64,000 bases of DNA from Leucobacter allii. GTDB lineage: Bacteria; Actinomycetota; Actinomycetes; Actinomycetales; Microbacteriaceae. The notes beneath the pieces are model-generated. The model was not told the DNA's origin, searched no databases, and saw only the letters and a list, made by a program, of their open reading frames with translations. Position 1 is the first letter of the stretch, and each line of letters starts with the position of its first letter. Shown here piece by piece: positions 19,032 to 53,134 of this stretch. The position numbers and the translations under genes are program-made. The stretch is taken from assembly GCF_022919155.1 (NCBI RefSeq), contig NZ_CP095045.1, forward strand, positions 2,108,001-2,172,000, written 5' to 3'.

Positions 19032-19817
19032 GTGCTCGAACAGACGCAGATTGAATCCATCGCGGACGAACTGGTGCAGGCGGATCGGGATCGCACGATC
19101 CTGCCGAAGCTCACGTCCCGGTACCCCGGCATGGTCATCGAGGACTCCTACGCCATCCAGAAGGTGTGGTCGGATCGACGCATCGCCGCCGGCGCGCGGC
19201 TCGTCGGCCACAAGATCGGCCTCACCTCGAAGGTGATGCAGCTCGCCACCGGCATCAGCGAACCGGACTACGGCGTCATCCACGACGACATGGTCTACGA
19301 GTCGGGCTCCGTCCTCGAGTTCGACCGCTTCTCCAACGTCCGCATCGAGGTCGAGCTCGCCTTCGTCCTGTCGAAGCCGCTGCGCGGCCCCGGCGTCTCG
19401 CTCTTCGACGTGCTCGACGCCACGGCGTACGTGGTGCCGGCGCTCGAGGTGCTCAACTCGCACCTCGAGCTCGAGGGCCGCACGATCGTCGACACGATCA
19501 GCGACAACGCGGCGATGGGCGCGATGGTGGTCGGCGGCCGCCCCGTGAAAGTCGACGACCTCGATCTCACGTGGGCCAAGGCGCTGCTCTACCGCAACGA
19601 GGGCATCGAGGATTCCGGCGTCGCCGGCGCGGTGCTCGGCCACCCGGCGCTCGGCGTCGCCTGGCTCGCGAACAAGCTCGCGCAGCACGGGCAGGCGCTC
19701 GACGCCGGCGAGATCATCCTCGCCGGATCGTTCACGAAGCCCATGTGGGTGGAGCGGGGCGACACCGTGCACGCCGACTACCACGAGCTGGGATCGGTCA
19801 CATGCCGATTCGCCTGA
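19032..19817 (+). CDS. hpaH: 2-oxo-hept-4-ene-1,7-dioate hydratase
   Basis: 261 residues, GTG start with GGAGG 5 nt before. The pattern GARLVGHKIGLTSKVMQ, EPDYGVIHDDM and EVELAFVL is that of the HpaH/MhpD hydratase family, with Glu and Asp metal ligands in the EVELAF region. It adds water to 2-oxohept-4-ene-1,7-dioate in the homoprotocatechuate meta-cleavage route, giving the substrate of HpaI. It overlaps hpaI by 16 bp and lies in a cluster with hpaD and hpaE, which decides between this and the related MhpD/catechol-pathway hydratases. Confidence 0.88.
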   Translation: MLEQTQIESIADELVQADRDRTILPKLTSRYPGMVIEDSYAIQKVWSDRRIAAGARLVGHKIGLTSKVMQLATGISEPDYGVIHDDMVYESGSVLEFDRFSNVRIEVELAFVLSKPLRGPGVSLFDVLDATAYVVPALEVLNSHLELEGRTIVDTISDNAAMGAMVVGGRPVKVDDLDLTWAKALLYRNEGIEDSGVAGAVLGHPALGVAWLANKLAQHGQALDAGEIILAGSFTKPMWVERGDTVHADYHELGSVTCRFA

Positions 19818-20620
19818 GCCTTCCCGCCACGCTGCGCGAGCGGCTCGCCGACGCCGACCGCCCCCTCATCGGGCTCTGGGCCTGCGCCGGCAGTCCGATC
19901 ACCGCCGAGATCGTGGCGGGCAGCGGCTGCGACTGGGTGCTCCTGGACGCCGAGCACTCCCCCAACGGCCTCGAATCGGTGCTCGCGCAGCTCTACGCGA
20001 TGTCGGCCTACCCCGTGGCGCCGCTCGTCCGGCCGCCGTTCGGCGACACGGTCACGATCAAGCAGTTCCTCGACCTCGGTGCGCAGAACCTGCTCATCCC
20101 GATGGTCGACTCGGCCGAGCAGGCCGCCGAGATCGTGCGCGCCGCCCGCTACCCGACCGGCGAGCCCGGCGCCGGAGCCCGAGGCGTGGGCTCGGCGCTC
20201 GCCCGCTCCGCGCGCTGGAACCGGGTCGAGGGCTACCTCGGACGCGCGGCGGAGACCATCAGCCTGACCGTCCAGATCGAGTCGGCCGCCGCGGTCGCCG
20301 ACGTCGAACGGATCGCGGCCGTGCCCGGCGTCGACGCGCTCTTCGTCGGCCCCTCCGACCTCGCCGCCTCGATGGGGCATCTCGGGCAGCAGAGTCACCC
20401 CGAGGTCGTCGCGGGCGTGCACCGGGCGATCGCCGCCGGCCGGGCCGCCGGGATCCCCGTCGGCGTGAACGCCTTCGTGCCCGCCGACGCGGAGCGCTAC
20501 ATCGCGGCCGGCGCCGCCTTCGTCGCCGTGGGCGCCGATGTCGCGATCCTCGCCAGGCAGACCGAGACGCTCGTCGACCGCTTCACGGGCGGCGCCGGCG
20601 AGGAGCGCGCGAGCTACTGA
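19802..20620 (+). CDS. hpaI: 4-hydroxy-2-oxo-heptane-1,7-dioate aldolase
   Basis: 272 residues, HpcH/HpaI class II aldolase family. Motifs: GLWACAGSP, LLDAEHSPN with the active-site His, VRPPFGD with Arg, QIESAAAV with the metal-binding Glu, and GPSDLAASMG with the metal-binding Asp. It splits 4-hydroxy-2-oxoheptane-1,7-dioate to pyruvate and succinate semialdehyde, the last step of the pathway. Its start lies inside hpaH. Confidence 0.9.
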   Translation: MPIRLSLPATLRERLADADRPLIGLWACAGSPITAEIVAGSGCDWVLLDAEHSPNGLESVLAQLYAMSAYPVAPLVRPPFGDTVTIKQFLDLGAQNLLIPMVDSAEQAAEIVRAARYPTGEPGAGARGVGSALARSARWNRVEGYLGRAAETISLTVQIESAAAVADVERIAAVPGVDALFVGPSDLAASMGHLGQQSHPEVVAGVHRAIAAGRAAGIPVGVNAFVPADAERYIAAGAAFVAVGADVAILARQTETLVDRFTGGAGEERASY

Positions 20621-20711
20621 TCCCGCGATCCGGGGATCCGCAGCCGCGACTCCGCTCCACGGAGTTCGCCCCCGGGTCCCGCACCCCGCACCCCCTTTCC
20701 AGATCCCCACG

Positions 20712-20733
20712 GATCGTATATGATTTGAAATAC
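20712..20733 (+). promoter_or_regulatory. hpa operator 2 (before the FAH-RraA gene)
   Basis: GATCGTATATGAT then TTGAAATAC, 20 bp before the ATG at 20754. It repeats the site at 18988-19009 with four base changes, all transitions. This indicates a second promoter in the cluster under the same regulator. Confidence 0.7.
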
Positions 20734-20753
20734 AACGACGAGACGAGGCAGTC

Positions 20754-22244
20754 ATGAGCTACGGAATCGACACCCCGGGCAAGATCATCGCCGTGCACCT
20801 GAACTACCCCTCGCGCATGCAGCAGCGCGGGCGCACCCCCTCCCACCCCTCCTACTTCTTCAAGCCGCAGTCCTCGCTCGCGGCGAGCGGCGGCATCATC
20901 GAGCGGCCGGCCGGAACCGAGCTGCTCGCCTTCGAGGGCGAGATCGCGCTCGTGATCGGCGCGCCCGCGCGCTGGGTCTCCCCGGAGGACGGCTGGAGCC
21001 ACGTCGCGCAGGTGACCGCCGCCAACGACTTCGGCGTCTACGACCTCCGCGCGGCCGACAAGGGGTCGAACGTGCGCAACAAGGGCGGCGACGGCTTCAC
21101 CCCGATCGGCCCGGCGGCGATCCCGACGGACGGTCTCGGCCCGGGCGACTGGCGCGTGCGCACCTGGGTGAACGGCGCACTCGTGCAGGACGACACGAGC
21201 GATACGCTCGCCTTCCCCTTCGGGCGGCTCGTCGCCGACCTGTCGCAGCACTTCACACTGGAGACCGGCGACGTGATCCTCACGGGCACCCCCGCAGGGT
21301 CCTCGGTGGTGCTCCCCGGCGACGTCGTCGAGGTCGAGGTCGACGCGCCGAACGCCCCGGGCGCCCCGAGCACCGGCCGTCTCGTCACCACCGTCGCCCA
21401 GGGCGACCACGAGTTCGGCGACTTCGGCAGTAAGCCCGCCGTCGACGACACGCAGCGCATCGAGGCGTGGGGCAGCGAGCAGGAGCACGCGGCCGCGGTC
21501 GCCGCGGGCCGAGCCACCCCGCTCGTCGAGCGGCCCGAGGCGAGCCCCCTCACCGACGAGATCCGCGAGCTGCTCGACGGCGTCGCCGTCGCGACCGTCT
21601 CGGCGGCGCTGCGCAAGCGCGGCTACGTCGACGTCTTCATCGACGGGGTGCATCCGAATCACGAGGGCGACACGATCCTCGGCACCGCCAAGACGCTGCG
21701 CTTCATCCCGTTCCGGCCGGACCTGTTCGCGCAGCACGGCGGCGGCTTCAACGCGCAGAAGCGCGCGTTCGACACCGTGAACCCGGGCGAGGTGCTCGTC
21801 GTCGAGGCCCGCGGCATCCCCGAGACCGGCACCGTCGGCGACGTCCTCGCGCTCCGCGCCCAGGTGCGCGGCGCCGCCGGCATCGTCACCGACGGCGGCG
21901 TACGCGACTTCGCGGCGGTGCAGGAGTTCGACATCCCGGTGTTCTCGCAGGGCGCCCACCCGAGCGTGCTCGGCCGCCGGCACGTGCCCTGGGAGGTCGA
22001 CGTGACCGTCGCCTGCGGCGGCGCCGCCGTGCAGCCCGGCGACATCATCATGGGCGACGGCGACGGCGTGATCGTGATCCCGCCGTTCCTCCTCGAGGAG
22101 GTCGCCCGCGAGGCGGCGGCGCAGGAGGCCGCGGACGCCTGGGTCGCCGAGCAGGTCGCCGCCGGACATCCCGTGGACGGCCTGTTCCCGATGAACGCCG
22201 AGTGGCGCGCGAAGTACGAGGCCGCGCAGGCGGACGGATCCTGA
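20754..22244 (+). CDS. Fumarylacetoacetate-hydrolase-fold protein fused to RraA-like aldolase/decarboxylase domain
   Basis: 496 residues with two enzymes in one chain. Residues about 1-230 are a FAH domain like HpaG: metal ligands Glu61 and Glu63 (FEGEIAL) and Asp92 (NDFGVYD), and LTGTPAG near its end. Residues about 265-496 are an RraA/HMG-aldolase-like domain with the metal motif TDGGVRD (Arg384, Asp385). In this pathway the FAH domain would decarboxylate and/or isomerise 5-oxopent-3-ene-1,2,5-tricarboxylate, the job of the two-FAH-domain HpaG of E. coli. RraA-fold enzymes can decarboxylate 2-oxo acids, so the second domain may take one of the two steps. The exact division of labour is inference. 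Confidence 0.85.
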   Translation: MSYGIDTPGKIIAVHLNYPSRMQQRGRTPSHPSYFFKPQSSLAASGGIIERPAGTELLAFEGEIALVIGAPARWVSPEDGWSHVAQVTAANDFGVYDLRAADKGSNVRNKGGDGFTPIGPAAIPTDGLGPGDWRVRTWVNGALVQDDTSDTLAFPFGRLVADLSQHFTLETGDVILTGTPAGSSVVLPGDVVEVEVDAPNAPGAPSTGRLVTTVAQGDHEFGDFGSKPAVDDTQRIEAWGSEQEHAAAVAAGRATPLVERPEASPLTDEIRELLDGVAVATVSAALRKRGYVDVFIDGVHPNHEGDTILGTAKTLRFIPFRPDLFAQHGGGFNAQKRAFDTVNPGEVLVVEARGIPETGTVGDVLALRAQVRGAAGIVTDGGVRDFAAVQEFDIPVFSQGAHPSVLGRRHVPWEVDVTVACGGAAVQPGDIIMGDGDGVIVIPPFLLEEVAREAAAQEAADAWVAEQVAAGHPVDGLFPMNAEWRAKYEAAQADGS

Positions 22245-22246
22245 CC

Positions 22247-22918
22247 GTGTCCGACGAGTCCAAGTCCGAGCGGGCCTACCGCCTCATCCGCGAGCGCATC
22301 GACAGCGGGCAGTACGTGCCCGGCTACCGGCTCGTGCTCGCGCCGATCGCCGCGGAGCTCGGGATGTCGGTGGTCCCCGTGCGGGAGGCGATCCGGCGGC
22401 TCGAGGCGGAGCAGCTCGTCACCTTCGAGCGCAACGTCGGCGCGCAGGTGGCGCTCGTGCAGGAGACCGAGTACCTGCACACGATGCAGACGCTCGCGCT
22501 CGTGGAGGGATCCGCCACGGCGCTCGCCGCCCCGTTCGTCACCGCCGAGCAGATCGCGCGGGCGCGCGACGTGAACGAGACGATGCGCCGGACCCTCGAC
22601 GACTTCGATCCGCAGCGCTTCACCGCGCTCAACCTCGACTTCCACAGCGTGCTCTTCGAGACCTGCCCCAATCCGCACATCCTCGACCTCGTGCACCGCG
22701 GCTGGAACCGCATGAAGCTGCTGCGCAACTCCTCCTTCAGCTTCGTGCCCGGCCGCGCGCAGGAATCCGTCGCGGAGCACGAGCGGATCCTGCAGCTCGT
22801 CGAGCGGGGCGCTCCCCCGCTCGACGTCGAGCTCGCGGCCCGGGCCCACCGCACCGCGACGCTCGACGCCGTCCTCGCCTACGCCGAGGAGCACAAGCAG
22901 CCGTCCGCGGCGCACTGA
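22247..22918 (+). CDS. GntR-family regulator (FCD subfamily), probable hpa regulator
   Basis: 223 residues from a GTG two bases after the previous stop. Winged helix at the N terminus (RLVLAPIAAELGMSVVPVREAIRRLEAEQLV), then an all-helical FCD effector domain with possible metal ligands in LNLDFHSVLF and VAEHERIL. Being inside the hpa cluster, it is the best candidate to bind the two operators at 18988 and 20712 and to respond to a pathway intermediate. Usually such proteins repress until the effector binds. Confidence 0.88.
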   Translation: MSDESKSERAYRLIRERIDSGQYVPGYRLVLAPIAAELGMSVVPVREAIRRLEAEQLVTFERNVGAQVALVQETEYLHTMQTLALVEGSATALAAPFVTAEQIARARDVNETMRRTLDDFDPQRFTALNLDFHSVLFETCPNPHILDLVHRGWNRMKLLRNSSFSFVPGRAQESVAEHERILQLVERGAPPLDVELAARAHRTATLDAVLAYAEEHKQPSAAH

Positions 22919-22966
22919 TCCGATCCCCATCTCCCACCCCTGTCACATCGTTTCGGAGGCGACACC

Positions 22967-24466
22967 ATGACCCACCAGAAGCCCGCCGGGCTCCCCGACA
23001 AGATCCAGCTCTTCATCGACGGCGCGTTCGTCGACGCCCAGGACGGCGCGACGTTCGACGTCTCCGAGCCCGTGTCCAACGAGGTCTACATCACCGCGGC
23101 CGCCGCGGGCCGTGCCGACGTCGATCTCGCCGTCGCCGCCGCCAAGCGCGCGTTCGACGACGGCCCGTGGCCCCAGATGCTGCCCCGCGAGCGCTCGCGG
23201 ATCCTCCACCGGGTCGCCGACATCGTCGAGTCGCGCGACGAGCAGCTGGCCCTCATCGAGAGCTGGGACTCCGGCCTCCCCATCACGCAGGCGAAGGGCC
23301 AGGCGCGCCGCGCCGCCGAGAACTTCCGCTTCTTCGCCGACCTCATCGTCGCCGAGCACGACAACGTCACGAAGGTGCCCGGCCGCCAGATCAACTACGT
23401 GAACCGCAAGCCGAAGGGCGTCGCCGGCCTCATCACGCCCTGGAACGTGCCCTTCATGCAGGAGTCGTGGAAGCTCGCCCCGGCCCTCGCGACCGGCAAC
23501 ACGGTCGTGCTGAAGCCCGCCAGCTACACCCCGCTCTCGGCGGCGCTGTGGCCCGAGATCTTCCGCGAGGCCGGCGTGCCCGACGGGGTCTTCAACCTCA
23601 TTCTGGGCTCGGGCGGCGTCGCGGGCGATGCGCTCGTGAAGCACCCCGATGTGCCGCTCATCTCCTTCACCGGCGACAGCTCGACCGGCGCGATGATCTC
23701 GACCAACGCCGCGCCGTTCCTCAAGGGCCTCTCCCTCGAGCTCGGCGGCAAGAGCCCGTCCGTCGTCTTCGCCGACGCGGATCTCGAGGAGGCGCTCGAC
23801 GCCACCGTGTTCAGCGTCTTCAGCCTGAACGGCGAGCGCTGCACCGCCGGCAGCCGCGTCCTCGTCGAGCGCTCCATCTACGACGACTTCGTCGCCCGCT
23901 ACGCCGAGCGCGCGAAGAACATCGTGATCGGCCTGCCCTCCGACCCCGCGACCGAGGTCGGCGCGCTCGTGCACCCGAGCCACTTCGAGAAGGTCATGAG
24001 CTACGTCGAGATCGGCAAGTCCGAGGGGCGCCTCGTCGCCGGCGGCGGCCGCCCCGAGGGCTTCCCCGAGGGCAACTACGTCGCCCCGACCGTGTTCGCC
24101 GACGTCGCGCCCGATGCGCGCATCTTCCAGGAGGAGATCTTCGGCCCGGTCGTCGCCATCACTCCCTTCGACACGGACGAGGAGGCGCTCGCCCTCGCGA
24201 ACGACACGAAGTACGGCCTCGCCGCGTACGTCTGGACCTCGAACCTCAAGCGCGCCCACAACTTCGCGCACGGCATCGAGTCGGGCATGGTGTGGCTGAA
24301 CTCGAACAACGTCCGCGACCTGCGCACCCCCTTCGGCGGCGTGAAGGCCTCGGGCCTCGGCCGCGAGGGCGGGTACCGCTCGGTCGACTTCTACACCACG
24401 GCGCAGTCGATCCAGATCACCCTCAACGAGGCGCACTCCCCCCGCTTCGGCGCGGGCGGCAAGTGA
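22967..24466 (+). CDS. hpaE: 5-carboxymethyl-2-hydroxymuconate semialdehyde dehydrogenase
   Basis: 499 residues, aldehyde dehydrogenase fold: TPWNVPF, KPASYTPLSA, FTGDSSTG, LELGGKSPS with Glu and NGERCTAGSR with the catalytic Cys. GGAGG stands 8 nt before the ATG. Length and context (next to hpaD) point to HpaE, which oxidises the ring-cleavage product of homoprotocatechuate with NAD. Other ALDH functions cannot be excluded from sequence alone, but the cluster argues for this one. Confidence 0.9.
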   Translation: MTHQKPAGLPDKIQLFIDGAFVDAQDGATFDVSEPVSNEVYITAAAAGRADVDLAVAAAKRAFDDGPWPQMLPRERSRILHRVADIVESRDEQLALIESWDSGLPITQAKGQARRAAENFRFFADLIVAEHDNVTKVPGRQINYVNRKPKGVAGLITPWNVPFMQESWKLAPALATGNTVVLKPASYTPLSAALWPEIFREAGVPDGVFNLILGSGGVAGDALVKHPDVPLISFTGDSSTGAMISTNAAPFLKGLSLELGGKSPSVVFADADLEEALDATVFSVFSLNGERCTAGSRVLVERSIYDDFVARYAERAKNIVIGLPSDPATEVGALVHPSHFEKVMSYVEIGKSEGRLVAGGGRPEGFPEGNYVAPTVFADVAPDARIFQEEIFGPVVAITPFDTDEEALALANDTKYGLAAYVWTSNLKRAHNFAHGIESGMVWLNSNNVRDLRTPFGGVKASGLGREGGYRSVDFYTTAQSIQITLNEAHSPRFGAGGK

Positions 24467-24494
24467 CCCCATCCACCTTCCAGGAAGCATGATC

Positions 24495-25637
24495 ATGGCG
24501 AAACTCAACGAAGAAGACAAGCAGTCCGCGGGGTTCTGGGTCACTCAGGAGGCCCCGATCCACTCGGACAATCCCATCCCGACGGCGACCTCGCCCGCGC
24601 CGGACATCCTGCGCTGCGCGTACATGGAGCTCATCGTCACCGACCTCGCCGCCTCGCGCGAGTTCTACGTCGACGTGCTCGGGCTCTACGTCACCACGGA
24701 GGACGACGAGGCGATCTACCTCCGCTCCACCGAGGAGTTCATCCACCACAACCTCGTGCTGCGCAAGGGCCCCGTCGCGGCGGTCGCGGCGTTCTCCTAC
24801 CGCGTGCGCACGCCCGAGGACCTCGACCGGGCGGTAACCTTCTACGAGGAGCTCGGCTGCGAGGTGCGCCGCAACCCCGACGGATTCGTCACGGGCATCG
24901 GGGACTCGGTGCGCGTCGTCGATCCGCTCGGCTTCCCCTACGAGTTCTTCTACCAGACCGAGCACACCGAGCGGATGTCGTGGCGCTACGACCTGCACAT
25001 CCCCGGCGAGCTCGTGCGCCTCGACCACTTCAACCAGATCACCCCCGACGTGCCGCGCGCCGTCGGCTTCATGCAGAACCTGGGCTTCCGCGTCACCGAG
25101 GACATCCAGGACAACGAGGGCACGGTCTACGCGGCGTGGATGCGGCGCAAGCCGACGGTGCACGACACCGCCATGACCGGCGGCGACGGACCGCGCATGC
25201 ACCACGTGTGCTTCGCGACCCATGAGAAGCACAACATCCTCGCCATCTGCGACAAGCTCGGCTCGCTCCGGCGCTCCGATGCGATCGAGCGGGGGCCGGG
25301 CCGCCACGGCGTCTCGAACGCCTTCTACCTCTACCTGCGGGATCCGGACGGCCACCGCGTCGAGGTCTACACCCAGGACTACTACACGGGCGACCCCGAC
25401 AACCCGGTCGTCACCTGGGACGTGCACGACAACCAGCGCCGCGACTGGTGGGGCAACCCGGTCGTGCCCTCGTGGTACACCGACGGCTCGCTCGTGCTCG
25501 ACCTCGACGGCAACCCCCAGCCCGTCGTCGCGCGCACGGACGACTCCGAGATGGCCGTGACCATCGGCGCCGACGGCTTCTCCTACACCCGCGAGGGCGA
25601 CGAGGAGAAGGGCTTCAAGCTCGGCAACACGCTGTAG
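24495..25637 (+). CDS. hpaD: Homoprotocatechuate (3,4-dihydroxyphenylacetate) 2,3-dioxygenase
   Basis: 380 residues, extradiol ring-cleavage enzyme of the vicinal-oxygen-chelate fold. It is very close in remembered sequence to the Brevibacterium fuscum enzyme: metal ligands His178 (LDHFN), His237 (MHHVCF) and Glu290 (HRVEVYT), acid-base His223 (TVHDT), and His271 and Tyr280, all offset by exactly 23 from the B. fuscum numbering. It opens the catechol ring with O2. The start at 24495 is chosen since AGGAAG lies 7 nt before; the ATG at 24489 is too close. It ends the operon; a strong hairpin follows. Confidence 0.96.
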   Translation: MAKLNEEDKQSAGFWVTQEAPIHSDNPIPTATSPAPDILRCAYMELIVTDLAASREFYVDVLGLYVTTEDDEAIYLRSTEEFIHHNLVLRKGPVAAVAAFSYRVRTPEDLDRAVTFYEELGCEVRRNPDGFVTGIGDSVRVVDPLGFPYEFFYQTEHTERMSWRYDLHIPGELVRLDHFNQITPDVPRAVGFMQNLGFRVTEDIQDNEGTVYAAWMRRKPTVHDTAMTGGDGPRMHHVCFATHEKHNILAICDKLGSLRRSDAIERGPGRHGVSNAFYLYLRDPDGHRVEVYTQDYYTGDPDNPVVTWDVHDNQRRDWWGNPVVPSWYTDGSLVLDLDGNPQPVVARTDDSEMAVTIGADGFSYTREGDEEKGFKLGNTL

Positions 25638-47248: not shown

Positions 47249-47908
47249 TCAGTGCCCGCGGGCGATCCACTCGGGGAGCTGCGGCGCCTCGGCGGCGATC
47301 GTCGTGGCGTCCCCGTGCCCCGTGCACACGACGGTCTCCCCCGGGAGCGTCAGCAGTTCGTCCCGGATCGACGCGATGATCGTCGGGAAGTCGCTGTAGG
47401 AGCGGCCCGTCGCGCCGGGGCCGCCCTGGAAGAGCGTGTCCCCCGTGAACACGGCGCCCAGCGTCGGCGCCACGAAGCAGGTGGAGCCGGGCGAGTGCCC
47501 CGGCGTGAACCGGGCGTGCAGGAGCTCGCCCGCCACCGCGAAGGTGTCGCCGTTCACGATCTCCCGATCGGGCGCATCGTCGTGGACGGCGTCCCAGAGC
47601 ATCCGGTCGGCCGGGTTCAGCAGGATCGGGGCGCCGAGGAGCGCCGCCGTCTCGCGCGCCGCGCGGATGTGGTCGTCGTGCCCGTGGGTGAGCAGGATCG
47701 CGAGCACCCGGCGATCGCCCACCGCCTCGGCGATCGCGGCGGCGTCGTGCGCGGGATCGATGACGATCGCCTCGGCGTCGTCGCCCACGATCCAGACGTT
47801 GTTGTCCACCTCCCAGGTGCCGCCGTCGAGCGAGAACGTGCCGCTCGTGACGAGGCGCTCGATGCGCGCGCCCGTCGCCTCCGAGCTGCGGACGACCTCG
47901 GCCCCCAT
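47249..47908 (-). CDS. MBL-fold hydrolase linked to mycothiol-dependent formaldehyde oxidation
   Basis: 219 residues, metallo-beta-lactamase fold with the THGHDDH metal motif, then FTPGHSPGST, FTGDTLF and CTGHGD. Translationally coupled (TGATG) to mscR, the same pair as Rv2259-Rv2260 in mycobacteria. It may act like a glyoxalase II/S-formylmycothiol hydrolase, releasing formate from S-formylmycothiol; this role is inferred from pairing. Confidence 0.87.
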   Translation of the reverse strand: MGAEVVRSSEATGARIERLVTSGTFSLDGGTWEVDNNVWIVGDDAEAIVIDPAHDAAAIAEAVGDRRVLAILLTHGHDDHIRAARETAALLGAPILLNPADRMLWDAVHDDAPDREIVNGDTFAVAGELLHARFTPGHSPGSTCFVAPTLGAVFTGDTLFQGGPGATGRSYSDFPTIIASIRDELLTLPGETVVCTGHGDATTIAAEAPQLPEWIARGH

Positions 47909-48993
47909 CAGAGCTCCACCACGGAGCGCAGCACGGTGCCGTCGTGCATCCGGTCGAACGCGGCCTCGACGTCGCCGAGCCCGATGCGCTCGGTCACGAA
48001 GCCGTCGAGGTCGAGCCGGCCGAGCTTGTACTGGTCGATGAGCATCGCGAAGTCGCGGCTCGGCAGGCAGTCGCCGTACCAGGAGGACTTCAGGGCTCCG
48101 CCGCGCCCGAAGACGTCGAGGAGCGGCAGCTCGAGCACCATCTCGGGCGTCGGCACGCCGACGAGCACGACACGACCGGCGAGATCGCGCGCGTAGAAGG
48201 CCTGGCGGTACGTCTCGGGCCGGCCGACGGCGTCGATCACCACATCGGCGCCGAAGCCGCTGGTGAGGGCCTGGATGGCGGCGACCGGATCCTCGGTCTT
48301 CGAGTTGACGGTGTGCGTGGCGCCGAAGCGCTTCGCCTGCTCGAGCTTCGCATCGTCGATGTCCACGGCGACGATCGTCGTGGCCCCCGCGAGCTGGGCG
48401 CCGGCGATCGCGGCCGTCCCGACGCCGCCGCAGCCGATGACCGCCACGGACTCGCCCCGCTGCACGCCGCCGGTGTTGATCGCGGCGCCGATGCCCGCCA
48501 TCACCCCGCAGCCGAGCAGGCCGACCGCGGCCGCGTCCGACTCCTCGTCGATCTTCGTGCACTGCCCGGCCGCGACGAGGGTCTTCTCGATGAACGCGCC
48601 GATGCCGAGGGCGGGCGAGAGCTCGGTGCCGTCCTCGAGGGTCATCTTCTGCGAGGCGTTGTGCGTCGCGAAGCAGTACTGGGGCTGCCCCTTGCTGCAG
48701 GCGCGGCACTGCCCGCAGACCGCGCGCCAGTTGAGGATCACGCGGTCGCCGACGGCGACCTCCGTGACGCCCTCGCCGACGGCGGCGACCCGCCCCGTCG
48801 CCTCGTGGCCGAGGAGGAACGGGAAGTCGTCGCTGATGCCGCCGAGCTTGTAGTGCAGGTCCGTGTGGCAGACCCCGCTCGTGAGGATGTCGACGACGGC
48901 TTCCCCCGGACCCGGATCGGGGACGATGATCGTCGCGATCTCGGCCTGCGCGTTCTTCTCGCGGACGATGACGCCCTGGACTCGATACGCCAT
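47908..48993 (-). CDS. mscR: S-(hydroxymethyl)mycothiol dehydrogenase
   Basis: 361 residues. Catalytic zinc ligands Cys42, His63, Glu64; structural zinc Cys93, Cys96, Cys99, Cys107. Long stretches ([54 protein letters not shown]) agree with the mycobacterial enzyme as remembered. It oxidises the formaldehyde-mycothiol adduct with NAD, and also has nitrosomycothiol reductase activity. AAAGGA lies 6 nt before the ATG at 48993. It confirms that the host makes mycothiol. Formaldehyde released by O-demethylation would be disposed of here, fitting the P450 gene upstream. Confidence 0.96.
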
Positions 48994-49073
48994 GCGCATT
49001 CCTTTCGTTGTGGATCTTTGGGCCGCGGCGGGCCGCACGGGGCGGGCGGCGGCGCCGGCCCGACGGCTCCAGG

Positions 49074-52000
49074 CTATCGAAGCCCGGCGGCGACCGGAGC
49101 CGCGTCCGCGAGTTCCGCGAGCACGCCCTCCAGCCAGTCGACGGCTGCCTCCGCGGCGTCCGTGCCGCCGCCCGCGTCGTGGCGGCCGTACTCGCCGATG
49201 CGCTGAGCGCCGCAGGCCGTGAGCGCCTCGTCGAGCAGCTCGCTGCCGCGCGAGTAGGTCTTGGCGTAGCTGCGGTCCCCGAGGCCGAAGACGGCGTAGC
49301 GCAGGCCGGCGAGTCCGCCGCGCGCGGCGCGGAGCTCGGCGTGGAAGCCGCGTGCCGCGGTGGGGAGCTCGCCGTCGCCGTAGCTCGAGCAGAGCACGAG
49401 GTGGAGCCGCTGCGGGTCGAGCTCCTCGGGGGCGGCGTCGGCGACGTCGAGCAGCCGCACGTCTCCCCCGTCGAGGTGCCGGCGCAGCTCCTCCGCCGCG
49501 AGCTCGGCGCCGCCGGATTCGGTGGCGAAGAGGATCGTGATCGCCCCCTCGTGCCGGGCACCGGCCGCGCGCCCCGGCGCGGGCGGCGGGACGAGGGACG
49601 CGTCGCGGGCCGCGGCGAGCTGCGCGTCGCGGCTGGCGAGCTTGGCGCGCACGCGGCCGGGCGCCGCTCCGAGGCGCTCCCTGAGATCGATGCGGCGCCA
49701 TCCGGCGAAGTCGACGGCGTGCACCGGCGGAACGATGCCCGCGGCCGACGGGGCGTCGCCGTCGCGAGCCGCGAGATCGTCTCGGATCATGCGGGCGAGC
49801 TGCCGCGCGTCCTCGCGCTGCTCCGGGATCGTGCCGCGCGGGCCGCGGCGCAGCCAGCCGGCGGTGTAGAGCCCGGGCTCGACGCGCCCGTCGGGGTGGG
49901 CGCCCGCGGACGTCGGCATCGCGGTGCTGCCGGACGCCTCCGCGCCCTCGTCGACGAAGCCGACCGCGGTGACGACCGCGGTGACGGCGAGCTCCCGGTC
50001 GGCCCCGGCCTGCGCGATCCGGATCGCGCGCACGCCGCGCTCCCCCGAGATCTCGACGGGGCGCGCCCCGAACCACCACTCGATGACCGGAGTCCCCGGC
50101 TCGCCGTCCGAGCCGCGCTCCCCCGGGTCCGCTGCCGTGAGCTCGCGCACGGCGTCGAGGCGGGCGTCCTTCCCCTCGGGCACGGCGTCGAGGTCGACGC
50201 CGTGCACGACGTGGCGCACGCCGGGGAGACCCGCGAGCTCGCGCACCATCACGGGGTCGAACTTCGCGAGCTCGGGAGCGCTGCGGCCGATGAGGTGCAC
50301 CGTGCGCACGGCGCCGGCGAGGTCGGCGTGGACGGCATCGTCGAGGTCGCTCCCGGTGAAGTCCCGGCGCGTGAGCAGGCGCGCGACGTCCATCGCGACG
50401 TTGCCGTGGCCGACGATGGCGACGCGCGCGCCGAGGGCGGGCGGCGCCGGCGCGTCGGGATGTCCGTTCAGGGTGCGGGTGATCGCGCCCGCGCCGTGCA
50501 CGCCGGCGAGGTCGCCGCCGGGGATCCGGAGCGGCGCATCGCCGCGGACGCCCGTCGCGAGCACGACCGCGTCGCTCGCCGCCCGCAGCTCGTCGAGGCT
50601 GACGTCCACGCCGAGCCGCGTGTTCCCGATGAATCGCACGCCGGGCTCCGCGTAGAGCCGGTCGAACTGCCGGGAGACGGACTTCGTGCCCTGGTGGTCG
50701 GCGGCGACGCCGTAGCGCACGAGACCGTAGGGCACGGGCTGCGCCTCGACGACGTCGATCCGCGCGTCGGGGATCGCCTTGCGCACGGCCTGAGCCGTGA
50801 AGCTCCCCGACGGGCCGGAGCCGACGATGGTGATCCGCGGGGCGGTCGCCGTCGCGCGCGCGCTCGGATTCCCGTCCGCGGCCGGTCGCGCGCGCTCCCA
50901 GGTCACGGGCAGCCGCGTCATGCCGCGGAAGACCCAGCCGGCGATGACGGCCGGATCGGTCTCGCTGAGCGCGAGCCCCTCGAAGCGGGAGAAGAGCCGG
51001 GGCAGGCCGACCGCGGCGACCTCGGCCTTCGCGACCCAGGCGCCGAGGCAGACGTGCGTGCCCTTGCCGAAGGCGAGGTGCGGGCGCACCTCGCGGTGGA
51101 TGTCGAAGCGCTCGGGAGCCGCCCAGACCGTCTCGTCGCGATTGGCGGAGAGCACGCAGATGCCGAGCTTCGCCCCGGCGGGGAGCGCGACGCCGGCGAG
51201 CTCGGTGTCCCGGGTGACCTGCCTGGAGTAGAGGCCGATCGGGGCGACCCAGCGGATCGCCTCCTCGAAGACGGCCGGCCACAGCTCCGCGTCCGCCGCG
51301 ACGGCGGCGCGCTGCTCCGGGTGCTGCAGGAGCGCCCAGGCGGCGACGCCGAGGGCGTCGCGGGGCTCGTTCAGACCGCCGCCGATGGTCATCTTCAGGT
51401 TCGCTCGGATGCGCTCGAGCGGCATCGTCCGCTCGGGGGCGCGCAGCAGCTGGGCGATGAGCGTCGGGTTGTCGTCGAGATGCGCGGCGTGCCAGGCGAG
51501 CATCTCGTCGAGCGCGGCGTCCACCTCATCGAATGAGGCCTTGCCGAGCGCCCACACCTCGGGATCGTCGGCGTAGTTGCCCGTCGCGTCGATCATGGTC
51601 TGCGACCAGCGCTGCAGATCCGACTGATCGGCGTTGTGGAATCCGATGAGCTCGCGGAGGTTCTCCGCGGCGTACGGGGCGGCGAAGTCCCAGATGAGGT
51701 CGGCTCCCGGGCCGCGCTCCGCGAGCGCCTCGAGGGCGCGGGCGGCGTTCCGTTCGAAGACCCGCGTCCAGGTGCGCTTCACCTCGCCCGGCCGCAGCGC
51801 CGGCTGCCACGCCTTCCGCTCGATGTAGTGCTCGGGATCGTCGCGGCGCAGCATCGAGTGCCCCATCGCGCGGATCTGGAGCGAGCCCTCCTCGTTCGCC
51901 GAGAAGGTCTCCTGGTCGAGCTCCGTCTCGTGCACGGCCGCGTAGGACGTGATGAGGGTCCGACCGACGGCGGGCACCCAGTGCACGCCGCCCTCGGCTC

Positions 52001-52085
52001 GCAGCCGTTCGTAGATGGGGAAGGGATCGCGGACGAGGTCGGGGATCGTCACCCAGTCGGCGACGGGGGCGGGCTGCGCGGTCAT
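49074..52085 (-). CDS. Self-contained P450: cytochrome P450 - FprA-type reductase - flavodoxin fusion
   Basis: 1003 residues in one uninterrupted frame. (1) Residues 1-400: P450 with ExxR at Glu275-Arg278 and heme Cys346 in [10 protein letters not shown]. The I helix has GGGLNEP (235-241) instead of AGxxT. This, the N terminus and the WVFRGMT ending resemble GcoA/CYP255-type aryl-ether demethylases as I remember them. (2) Residues ~415-815: adrenodoxin-reductase/FprA type, with FAD motif GSGPSG (422-427), NADP motif VGHGNVAMD (558-566) and the [11 protein letters not shown] segment. (3) Residues ~848-990: flavodoxin with FMN loop TESGG (855-859), SSYGDGELP and FGLGDRSY. Electrons could go NADPH-FAD-FMN-heme in one chain. 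GAGGAC precedes the ATG. Order differs from the XplB-XplA fusion known from Microbacterium. Substrate unknown. Confidence 0.93.
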
Positions 52086-52120
52086 GTCGGGTCCTCATCG
52101 TTGAGCTGCGGGCGTTGCCT

Positions 52121-52132
52121 CGATTATGATCG
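52121..52132. promoter_or_regulatory. Candidate LysR site between P450 and LysR genes
   Basis: CGATTATGATCG, palindromic in 10 of 12 positions, the only such site in the 104 bp divergent gap. It is 36 bp from the P450 start. The LysR protein at 52190 is the natural candidate. Confidence 0.4.
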
Positions 52133-52189
52133 CGGAGAAAGCCGGGGAAAAGCGGGGAATACCGCTCTACTACAAAGGAAAAACCGATT

Positions 52190-53134
52190 TTGAGTACCGT
52201 CCGACCGCCCGACTTCACGCTGCGGCAGCTCGCGTACCTTGTGGCGGCCGCCGAAGCGGGGAGCATCGCCGCCGCCGCGGAGCGCCTGCACGTCTCCCCC
52301 TCGGCCCTCTCGGAGGCGCTCACCGAACTCGAGCGCGCGCTCGGCGCGCCGCTCACCGTGCGCCGTCGCGCGCACGGGCTCACGCTCACCGGCAGCGGCA
52401 CGGCGGTGCTCGCGCGGGCCCGCCGCCTGCTCGACGGCGCCGCCGAGCTCGCGGCGGGGATCCGCGGGCCCGACGGGGAGCTGGCGGGACCGGTGACGAT
52501 CGCCTGCTACCCCACGCTCGCGCCGGTGATCCTCCCCGCGCTGCTCGACGGCTTCGGCCGCGCGCACCCCAGGGTGCAGCTCGACATCCTCGAGGTCACG
52601 CACGATCAACTGCGCGGACGGATCGAGTCGGGCGAGGTCGACGTCGCCTTCGTCTACGACACGCTCGTGCCGGGTGCGCCGCGGCGCGAGCGGCTCTACG
52701 CGCTGCCCGCGCACGTCATCCTGCCGGCCGGCCACCGCCTCGCCGGGGCGGAGTCCGTGCGGCTGGCGGACCTCGCCTCCGACGACCTCATCCTGCTCGA
52801 CGCCCCGCCGTCGAGCGAGCACACGCTCTCGCTGTTCGCGCGTCTCGGCGTGACGCCGCGGATCCGGCACCGCACGGCCAGCTACGAAGCCGTGCGGACC
52901 CTCGTGGGACGCGGGCTCGGCTACGGCGTGCTCGTGCAGCGCGTGGCGAACGACCGCAGCTACGAGGGGTATCCGATCGTCGCGAAGGAGATCGAGCCGC
53001 CGGTCGAGCCCGTCGGCATTGACGTCATCTGGGCCGCGGGCGCACCCCCGTCCGCGCGCGTCCAACGGCTCGTCGCCTTCGCCCGATCGATCGACTGGCA
53101 CGGCGCGGCGCCGGCCGCAGGAGGAGCACCATGA
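52190..53134 (+). CDS. LysR-family regulator, probable P450 regulator
   Basis: 314 residues. TTG start (no ATG or GTG in this stretch) with AAAGGA 10 nt before. HTH: LRQLAYLVAAAEAGSIAAAAERLHVSPSALSEALTELERALG. The effector domain has GPVTIACYPTLAPVILP and ESGEVDVAFVYD. It is divergent from the P450 fusion and overlaps the HtaA-domain gene by 4 bp. Induction of the P450 by its substrate or product is inferred. Confidence 0.9.
   Translation: MSTVRPPDFTLRQLAYLVAAAEAGSIAAAAERLHVSPSALSEALTELERALGAPLTVRRRAHGLTLTGSGTAVLARARRLLDGAAELAAGIRGPDGELAGPVTIACYPTLAPVILPALLDGFGRAHPRVQLDILEVTHDQLRGRIESGEVDVAFVYDTLVPGAPRRERLYALPAHVILPAGHRLAGAESVRLADLASDDLILLDAPPSSEHTLSLFARLGVTPRIRHRTASYEAVRTLVGRGLGYGVLVQRVANDRSYEGYPIVAKEIEPPVEPVGIDVIWAAGAPPSARVQRLVAFARSIDWHGAAPAAGGAP

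Follow-up and report, generated by a model that had tools for sequence, protein, structure and literature searches.

In the present study, we analysed a 64,000-nucleotide stretch of the Leucobacter allii genome (contig NZ_CP095045.1, positions 2,108,001 to 2,172,000; hereafter the window). It encodes, in a single uninterrupted minus-strand frame, a protein in which a cytochrome P450 is followed by a flavin adenine dinucleotide (FAD) reductase and a flavodoxin. The fusion lies among genes for a formaldehyde-oxidising dehydrogenase, a hydrolase, a LysR-type regulator and a small HtaA-domain protein, and the window also holds a set of hpa genes (Table 1). The sequence-only reading of this DNA had recognised the single frame, the three domain types, their order and the heme cysteine, Cys346, and had named a Pfam domain search as a check. 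These points were borne out by the open reading frame (ORF), Pfam and PDB matches, with p450, Pyr_redox_2 and Flavodoxin_1 all found in one frame.

Table 1. The fusion, its domains and the genes around it (positions in the window)
Feature	Position	Strand	Evidence and remarks
P450 - FprA-type reductase - flavodoxin fusion, 1003 aa	49074..52085	-	ORF and translation, Pfam, related loci
P450 domain, residues 1-402, CYP1232-like	50880..52085	-	heme Cys346 codon 51048-51050; I-helix GGGLNEPRD 235-243
FAD/NADPH reductase domain, adrenodoxin reductase/FprA type, residues ~414-828	49602..50846	-	
Flavodoxin (FMN) domain, cindoxin-like, residues ~847-1003	49077..49547	-	PDB match, Pfam, FMN-loop residues
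S-(hydroxymethyl)mycothiol dehydrogenase (formaldehyde oxidation)	47908..48999	-	TIGR03451 656.8 bits, cut-off 512.9
MBL-fold hydrolase, GloB-like below cut-off	47249..47908	-	Lactamase_B 90 bits; TIGR03413 76 bits, cut-off 200.8
LysR-type regulator, TTG start as listed	52190..53134	+	Pfam
HtaA-domain small protein (PF04213), 149 aa	53131..53580	+	PF04213 62 bits, cut-off 24; overlaps LysR gene end
HpaD, 3,4-dihydroxyphenylacetate (homoprotocatechuate) 2,3-dioxygenase	24489..25637	+	TIGR02295 427.2 bits, cut-off 321.4
HpaE-like 5-carboxymethyl-2-hydroxymuconate semialdehyde dehydrogenase	22967..24466	+	TIGR02299 632.8 bits, just under cut-off 638.35
Fumarylacetoacetate-hydrolase-family / HpaG-like	20754..22244	+	NF009399 787 bits, cut-off 444; HpaG-C 118 bits, under 276.4
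HpaI-like 4-hydroxy-2-oxoheptanedioate aldolase, start not fixed	19775..20620	+	TIGR02311 293.6 bits, under cut-off 368.8
HpaH-like 2-oxo-hept-4-ene-1,7-dioate hydratase	19032..19817	+	TIGR02312 347.6 bits, just under cut-off 351.5

The P450 domain was 59.6% identical to CYP1232A24 (PDB 6g71) over 394 columns. In the naming of P450s, identity above 40% denotes the same family and above 55% the same subfamily; the identity to this named CYP1232 member exceeds 40%, and the heme cysteine and the ExxR motif are present. In the alignment, Cys346, E275 and R278 were kept in all 48 fused and all 22 stand-alone P450 rows. The I-helix motif GGGLNEPRD is common to fused and stand-alone members, and GcoA shares the Glu-Pro at this site, where most P450s have an acid-Thr pair. 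After CYP1232A24, the closest PDB P450s by fold were GcoA (guaiacol-bound entries), labelled 'Aromatic O-demethylase', and SyoA (syringol-bound entries), both about 30% identical to the fused P450. The partner of GcoA, GcoB, is a different and separate reductase, and the 6g71 structure is a P450 alone, a chain of 405 residues, whereas in the fusion the redox partners are joined to the P450. The middle domain matched Pfam Pyr_redox_2, and its best PDB matches were FprA and adrenodoxin reductase. For the flavodoxin part, the Flavodoxin_1 match (74.6 bits) spans residues 851-982, and the best match among the 87 PDB sequences compared was cindoxin, 4oxx (77.2 bits). The loss of flavin mononucleotide (FMN) binding had been raised beforehand as a point to check; at the sequence level the FMN-loop residues are conserved. 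A VIA-align structure comparison returned no flavodoxin row among the 50 matches listed; as these were dominated by P450s, the result has no bearing on the flavodoxin part.

To follow the arrangement in other genomes, we used the best 80 of 150 relatives from a scan of genome contigs, namely 70 fusion loci and 10 loci with a stand-alone P450. An unbroken frame was found in 62 of the 70 fusion loci. It stops within the last residues in L022 and L077 and is cut off by the contig end in L061 and L066, and L042, L070, L073 and L074 carry an in-frame stop or frame break, related species having intact copies. The same-order search proposed in the sequence-only reading showed that the order recurs and is not unique to this genome: all three Pfam domains were found in 119 of the 120 listed protein matches (of 283, the window's own included), the other protein, P0114, having no Pyr_redox_2 call. 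Three of the 120 carry the JGI label 'cytochrome P450/NADPH-dependent glutamate synthase beta subunit-like oxidoreductase/flavodoxin'. Within the genus, the three domains lie in one open frame in 20 of 54 genomes, 16 of them as a single match; two matches in the same frame occur in G695, G712, G725 and G728, the copy of G702 is broken and that of G716 reaches the contig end. The named hosts are chiefly Micrococcales (Leucobacter, Microbacterium, Agrococcus, Brevibacterium, Yaniella, Citricoccus and others), and seven loci belong to Gammaproteobacteria (L025, L027, L031, L033, L037, L038 and L072; Halomonas, Kushneria, Larsenimonas and Terasakiispira). In the first P450 tree, described below, the gammaproteobacterial fusions form one clade (support 100) that groups with Brevibacterium and Pseudoglutamicibacter (98). 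This placement points to a probable transfer out of actinobacteria. Homoprotocatechuate-pathway genes were seen near six of these seven fusions, with HpaD called in five.

In evenly drawn genome samples, a match was found in 11 of 299 genomes at family level (E <= 1e-150) and in 10 of 297 at order level (E <= 1e-100; six over the full query and four over the P450 alone), and at phylum level the reductase-flavodoxin half was found in one of 396 (E <= 1e-70), this being the window's own genome. Hence the fusion is widespread in one corner of the tree, yet uncommon in evenly drawn samples. Among 72,556 plasmid records no full-length fusion was found at E <= 1e-100; the one match was a P450 of Rhodococcus opacus, 51% identical over 39% of the query.

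By its parts, the electron chain of the fusion would work like that of P450cin, whose substrate is cineole, joined here in one chain with the P450 first. In the P450cin system, electrons pass from reduced nicotinamide adenine dinucleotide phosphate (NADPH) through an FAD reductase and an FMN flavodoxin to the P450 as three proteins, and the cindoxin reductase is described only as similar to NADPH-dependent ferredoxin reductases (PMC9687028). By sequence, the flavodoxin carrier is alike in both, since 4oxx is the best match and the FMN-loop residues are kept; the likeness is one of cofactor scheme and flavodoxin part, and three separate proteins stand against one frame of 1003 residues. The flavodoxin best matches cindoxin, and L. 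allii and other genomes carry discrete FprA-type reductase and flavodoxin genes beside other P450s, so the earlier proposal of a 'distinct electron-transfer class' was too strong.

The contrast in domain order drawn at that time holds against the described layouts, as far as the source texts available go. BM3 carries a diflavin reductase, a cytochrome P450 reductase (CPR)-like FAD-FMN module, C-terminal to the P450; P450TT combines a P450, a phthalate-dioxygenase-reductase-like FMN domain and a [2Fe-2S] ferredoxin; a Paraburkholderia self-sufficient protein has the order ferredoxin-FAD-FCD-P450 (PMC9687028); and XplA has its flavodoxin at the N-terminus, with XplB as cognate flavodoxin reductase (PMC8081977). 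BM3 (CYP102), RhF/CYP116B and P450TT are likewise self-sufficient P450s with C-terminal redox domains, self-sufficiency of our fusion being a prediction. In contrast to the CYP102 class, Pfam gave Pyr_redox_2 and listed no ferredoxin-NADP reductase (FNR)-type domain, and in contrast to the RhF/CYP116B class, it listed no phthalate-reductase-type FMN or [2Fe-2S] domain. XplA shares with the fusion a flavodoxin covalently joined to a P450, but here the P450 is N-terminal and the flavodoxin lies at 851-982. A Microbacterium XplB-XplA fusion has the reductase first according to the sequence-only reading; no paper on it was found in the literature searched. In the literature searched, which covered few subscription journals and was in part available as partial texts, we found no description of a natural P450-reductase-flavodoxin fusion in this order, and within that literature the one-chain, P450-first layout is undescribed. 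Artificial fusions of flavodoxin and flavodoxin reductase have been reported (PMC4503991, PMC5575160).

The gene next downstream of the fusion, on the same strand and about 74 bp away if the first ATG is the start, is the mycothiol-type formaldehyde dehydrogenase. Its stop is overlapped by the ATG of the metallo-beta-lactamase (MBL)-fold hydrolase, a candidate S-formylmycothiol hydrolase. On the other side, the LysR gene is divergent from the fusion at a distance of 104 bp, and a LysR homologue (at least 45% identity, tblastn) accompanies the P450 at 49 of the 70 fusion loci and at eight of the 10 stand-alone ones. An operator search of 52086-52215 gave one weak T-N11-A match only (4/6 half-site bases, at 52200, inside the listed LysR frame). 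The hpa genes at 19032-25637 make up the homoprotocatechuate meta-cleavage route. Elsewhere, 21 of the 70 fusion loci had an HpaD no more than 9 kb away, 16 by tblastn (at least 50% identity) and five in Halomonadaceae by clustering, all five exceeding the TIGR02295 cut-off; full 9-kb flanks were present in 54 of the 70. By chance, one randomly placed HpaD per genome of about 3.5 Mb would be expected in about 0.4 of 70 such stretches of about 21 kb; this is an estimate, and related loci are not independent. With the window proteins as tblastn queries, any of five Hpa genes was found at 23 of 70 fusion loci and at none of the 10 stand-alone loci. The formaldehyde dehydrogenase also adjoins the fusion of G705 (L104), in the same order.

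On these observations (domain make-up and order, conserved cofactor motifs, predicted fold and gene neighbourhood), we consider it probable that the fusion is a self-sufficient homovanillate-type aryl-O-demethylase P450 acting on aromatic acids of plant origin, with the Hpa route and formaldehyde oxidation downstream. We infer its cofactor content, electron flow, reaction and substrate, and the order of the steps would follow from the families of its parts. NADPH would reduce the FAD of the central adrenodoxin-reductase-type domain, which would pass electrons one at a time to the FMN bound by the cindoxin-like flavodoxin domain at the C-terminus; this domain would dock on the N-terminal CYP1232-type P450 and reduce its heme. 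The P450 would then hydroxylate a methoxylated phenylacetate at its methoxy carbon, homovanillate (3-methoxy-4-hydroxyphenylacetate) being the most likely substrate, and the resulting hemiacetal would break down to homoprotocatechuate and formaldehyde. HpaD would open the ring of homoprotocatechuate, and the Hpa enzymes encoded in the window would degrade it further; the mycothiol-dependent dehydrogenase, whose gene follows in the operon, would oxidise the formaldehyde. The demethylase assignment draws on three lines, namely the relatives (CYP1232A24, GcoA and SyoA), the Hpa pathway and the formaldehyde dehydrogenase. The discrete genes of G708, in which a SyoA/GcoA-like P450, a reductase and a flavodoxin follow in the same order, support it further. 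CYP1232A24 is reported to demethylate methoxylated phenylacetates, including 3,4-dimethoxyphenylacetate and homovanillate. For two Arthrobacter P450s (CYP1232A24 and 1232F1, in papaverine metabolism by the title of a reference), a cluster including a flavodoxin and a flavodoxin reductase has been proposed (PMC9687028).

Several points weigh against this assignment. The window's hpa genes lie about 23 kb from the fusion, the HpaI, HpaH and HpaE homologues score under their cut-offs, and no HpaD was seen in the DNA examined around 49 of the 70 fusions. Two of the 10 stand-alone loci (L078 and L083) hold a hydrolase of cluster 12, whose tested member is HpaG-like and scores under the cut-off. Within the genus, finding the fusion together with HpaD is uninformative, because HpaD is present in 50 of 54 genomes with or without the fusion. 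The formaldehyde dehydrogenase was ruled out as a general neighbour, being found at 0 of the 70 named loci (tblastn, at least 60% identity) and only in the window and G705, so its link is local; five loci have other dehydrogenases, 29-35% identical, and the glutathione-type enzyme was not searched for near the gammaproteobacterial fusions. In the reductase, the adjacent FprA arginines R199/R200, which we take to bind NADPH, correspond to R601 and S602, so that one of the two is matched.

A PRK08294-type flavin aromatic monooxygenase was seen at 13 of 70 fusion loci (L011, L018, L021, L025, L027, L031, L033, L037, L038, L040, L060, L063 and L070) and is perhaps another entry enzyme to homoprotocatechuate. 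It bears on the alternative that the same self-sufficient chain carries out ring hydroxylation, for example of 3- or 4-hydroxyphenylacetate to homoprotocatechuate, since several entry reactions may be clustered and the Hpa neighbourhood fits any homoprotocatechuate route. We regard this as unlikely, however, because the closest solved P450s are GcoA, SyoA and CYP1232A24, which we take to be a demethylase, and a formaldehyde dehydrogenase stands in the operon.

The relatives of the fused P450 that stand alone have other partners. All 10 such loci have a [2Fe-2S] ferredoxin beside the P450, and eight of them a ferredoxin reductase of the Pyr_redox_2/Reductase_C type, the families having been identified by scanning one example of each; fused and stand-alone members thus appear to reflect a redox-partner swap within one P450 lineage. 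P450 trees were built from 110 rows (tblastn matches of at least 330 aa, eight database proteins, 6g71 and the window), the first without L007, L094 and L097 and the second also without L006, L008 and L095, on account of distant roots and branches of 6 to 10 changes per column. In the second tree, the midpoint root falls on the branch to four 44-45% identical paralogs; the 18 stand-alone P450s form one group with bootstrap 91 but only 21 in the Shimodaira-Hasegawa-like approximate likelihood ratio test (SH-aLRT), and the opposite side holds the 81 fused rows together with 6g71, the fused rows forming a single side in only 14% of bootstrap trees. Because 6g71 falls among the fused rows, the fused or stand-alone label needs two changes; the tree is compatible with a single fusion event, and 6g71 is a long branch.

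Separate genes of the same kinds also occur. In the L. allii genome (L091 12082-15322, at about 917-920 kb), FprA-type reductase and cindoxin-like flavodoxin genes are divergent from another P450 and, alongside the fusion, would give this genome a discrete P450cin-like set. Separate reductase and flavodoxin homologues (37-45% and 44-51% by tblastn) lie near other P450s in L091, L092 and L094-L098, with stops within or between them, the P450 match of L098 being a 132-aa piece. In G708, P450, reductase, flavodoxin and HtaA follow in this order as four genes that overlap or almost adjoin, and the best match of the P450 is SyoA (278 bits); loss of stop codons in such an arrangement would give the order seen in the fusion.

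A second CYP1232-like P450, 44-45% identical and possibly a CYP1232F1-like enzyme, was seen at L101 5413-6603 (-), L099 5437-6639 (-), L100 5180-6370 (+) and L048 7781-8938 (+). In L101 about 3 kb separate it from the fusion, and in L048 the order is second P450, its own flavodoxin, fusion. The reductase-flavodoxin half might also or mainly serve such a P450 in trans, for example the 44% identical one of G730, about 3 kb off. Three loci of the genus, L099, L100 and L101, have the second P450 with no further reductase or flavodoxin match in the DNA examined around it, and L101 also holds the fusion. Nevertheless, in L048 the second P450 has its own flavodoxin, and catalytic motifs kept in 48 of 48 rows argue that the fused P450 is no mere carrier, which makes such a role improbable.

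It is about as doubtful that the domains are joined for stoichiometry, with turnover needing a dimer or a free flavodoxin. The genome also encodes, as a gene pair, a separate reductase (46%) and flavodoxin (49%), BM3 works as a dimer (PMC9687028), and the AlphaFold model of the fusion leaves the domain placement open, with a predicted template modelling score (pTM) of 0.65. That model was made with a 71-row alignment and replaced a first one with 25 close sequences, in which the P450 part was poor (mean predicted local distance difference test, pLDDT, 73.4). Against this, the fused order is kept across many lineages. Finally, an assembly join or pseudogene, raised earlier as a check and favoured by the stop or frame break in 4 of 70 loci, is ruled out for practical purposes, because the same continuous frame stands in 62 of 70 related loci and in 20 of 54 genus genomes.

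The probable O-demethylase has a further companion in the HtaA-domain protein. With a profile hidden Markov model on stop-to-stop frames, an HtaA homologue was found within 2.5 kb of the fusion in 43 of 70 loci versus 0 of 10 stand-alone P450s; the profile was built from 19 neighbours, 18 of which are within the 70 loci and match by construction. It lies on the fusion strand, upstream of the fusion, in 14 loci and on the opposite strand in 29. Of the 54 genus genomes, 14 have a member of the close subfamily (E < 1e-37); 13 of these copies adjoin the fusion, and the remaining one belongs to the G708 operon (L111 7572-8078, -), after the discrete P450, reductase and flavodoxin genes. More distant HtaA domains are nearly universal in the genus (51 of 54 at E <= 1e-15). 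Seven of the 20 intact-fusion genomes have no close copy. In G726 (L112 5239-6909, -), an FprA-type reductase has an HtaA-like C-terminus in one 556-aa frame (profile 5.9e-20), which the Pfam HtaA model did not report. The residues L4, W6, Y15, G22, F40, G58, H65, G67, D93, R100, L123, G127, F131 and Y135 do not vary among 16 sequences. In the alignment, the counterpart of Y15 in 6jsa (44 bits) is a Tyr, and in 6jsc, a near-copy of 6jsa, Ala takes the place of H65. We take 6jsa to be an HtaA-family heme protein whose residues aligned with Tyr15 and His65 contact heme. A more distant match, 8smu, is labelled HtaACR2. No signal peptide was apparent by eye, and an anti-phage library scan of the protein gave no match. 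In the same genome (L113 7040-7474, -, and 8504-9766, +; about 319-322 kb), a second single-domain HtaA protein adjoins a LysR gene and lies about 1 kb, with one gene between, from a different P450 that is 28% identical to the fused one.

Since the Brevibacterium and Halomonadaceae fusions are without it, HtaA is not needed at every fusion. We tentatively suggest a five-part module, in which P450, reductase and flavodoxin in one chain might be joined by a dedicated cytosolic HtaA protein that loads or guards the P450 heme and by a LysR switch; HtaA stays beside the fusion despite changes of gene order, follows the G708 genes and appears to be joined to the reductase in G726. If this holds, a bacterial P450 would have a heme chaperone of its own, an accessory protein of a new kind (our literature search did not cover HtaA).

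If active, the fusion would be a natural one-protein reductase-flavodoxin-P450 chain and a template for P450s driven by an adrenodoxin-reductase/flavodoxin tail, not by CPR or phthalate-reductase tails. It would also supply an enzyme for homovanillate-type O-demethylation; the vanillate demethylase of Rhodococcus ruber did not degrade a homovanillate-type substrate (PMC9867520). The gene context gives a specific, testable substrate prediction, and the family points to a possible dedicated heme-handling partner. Since one P450 lineage uses two unrelated redox partners, a fused FAD-FMN chain in some members and a [2Fe-2S] ferredoxin with its reductase as separate proteins in others, the switch of partner can be put to a direct test.

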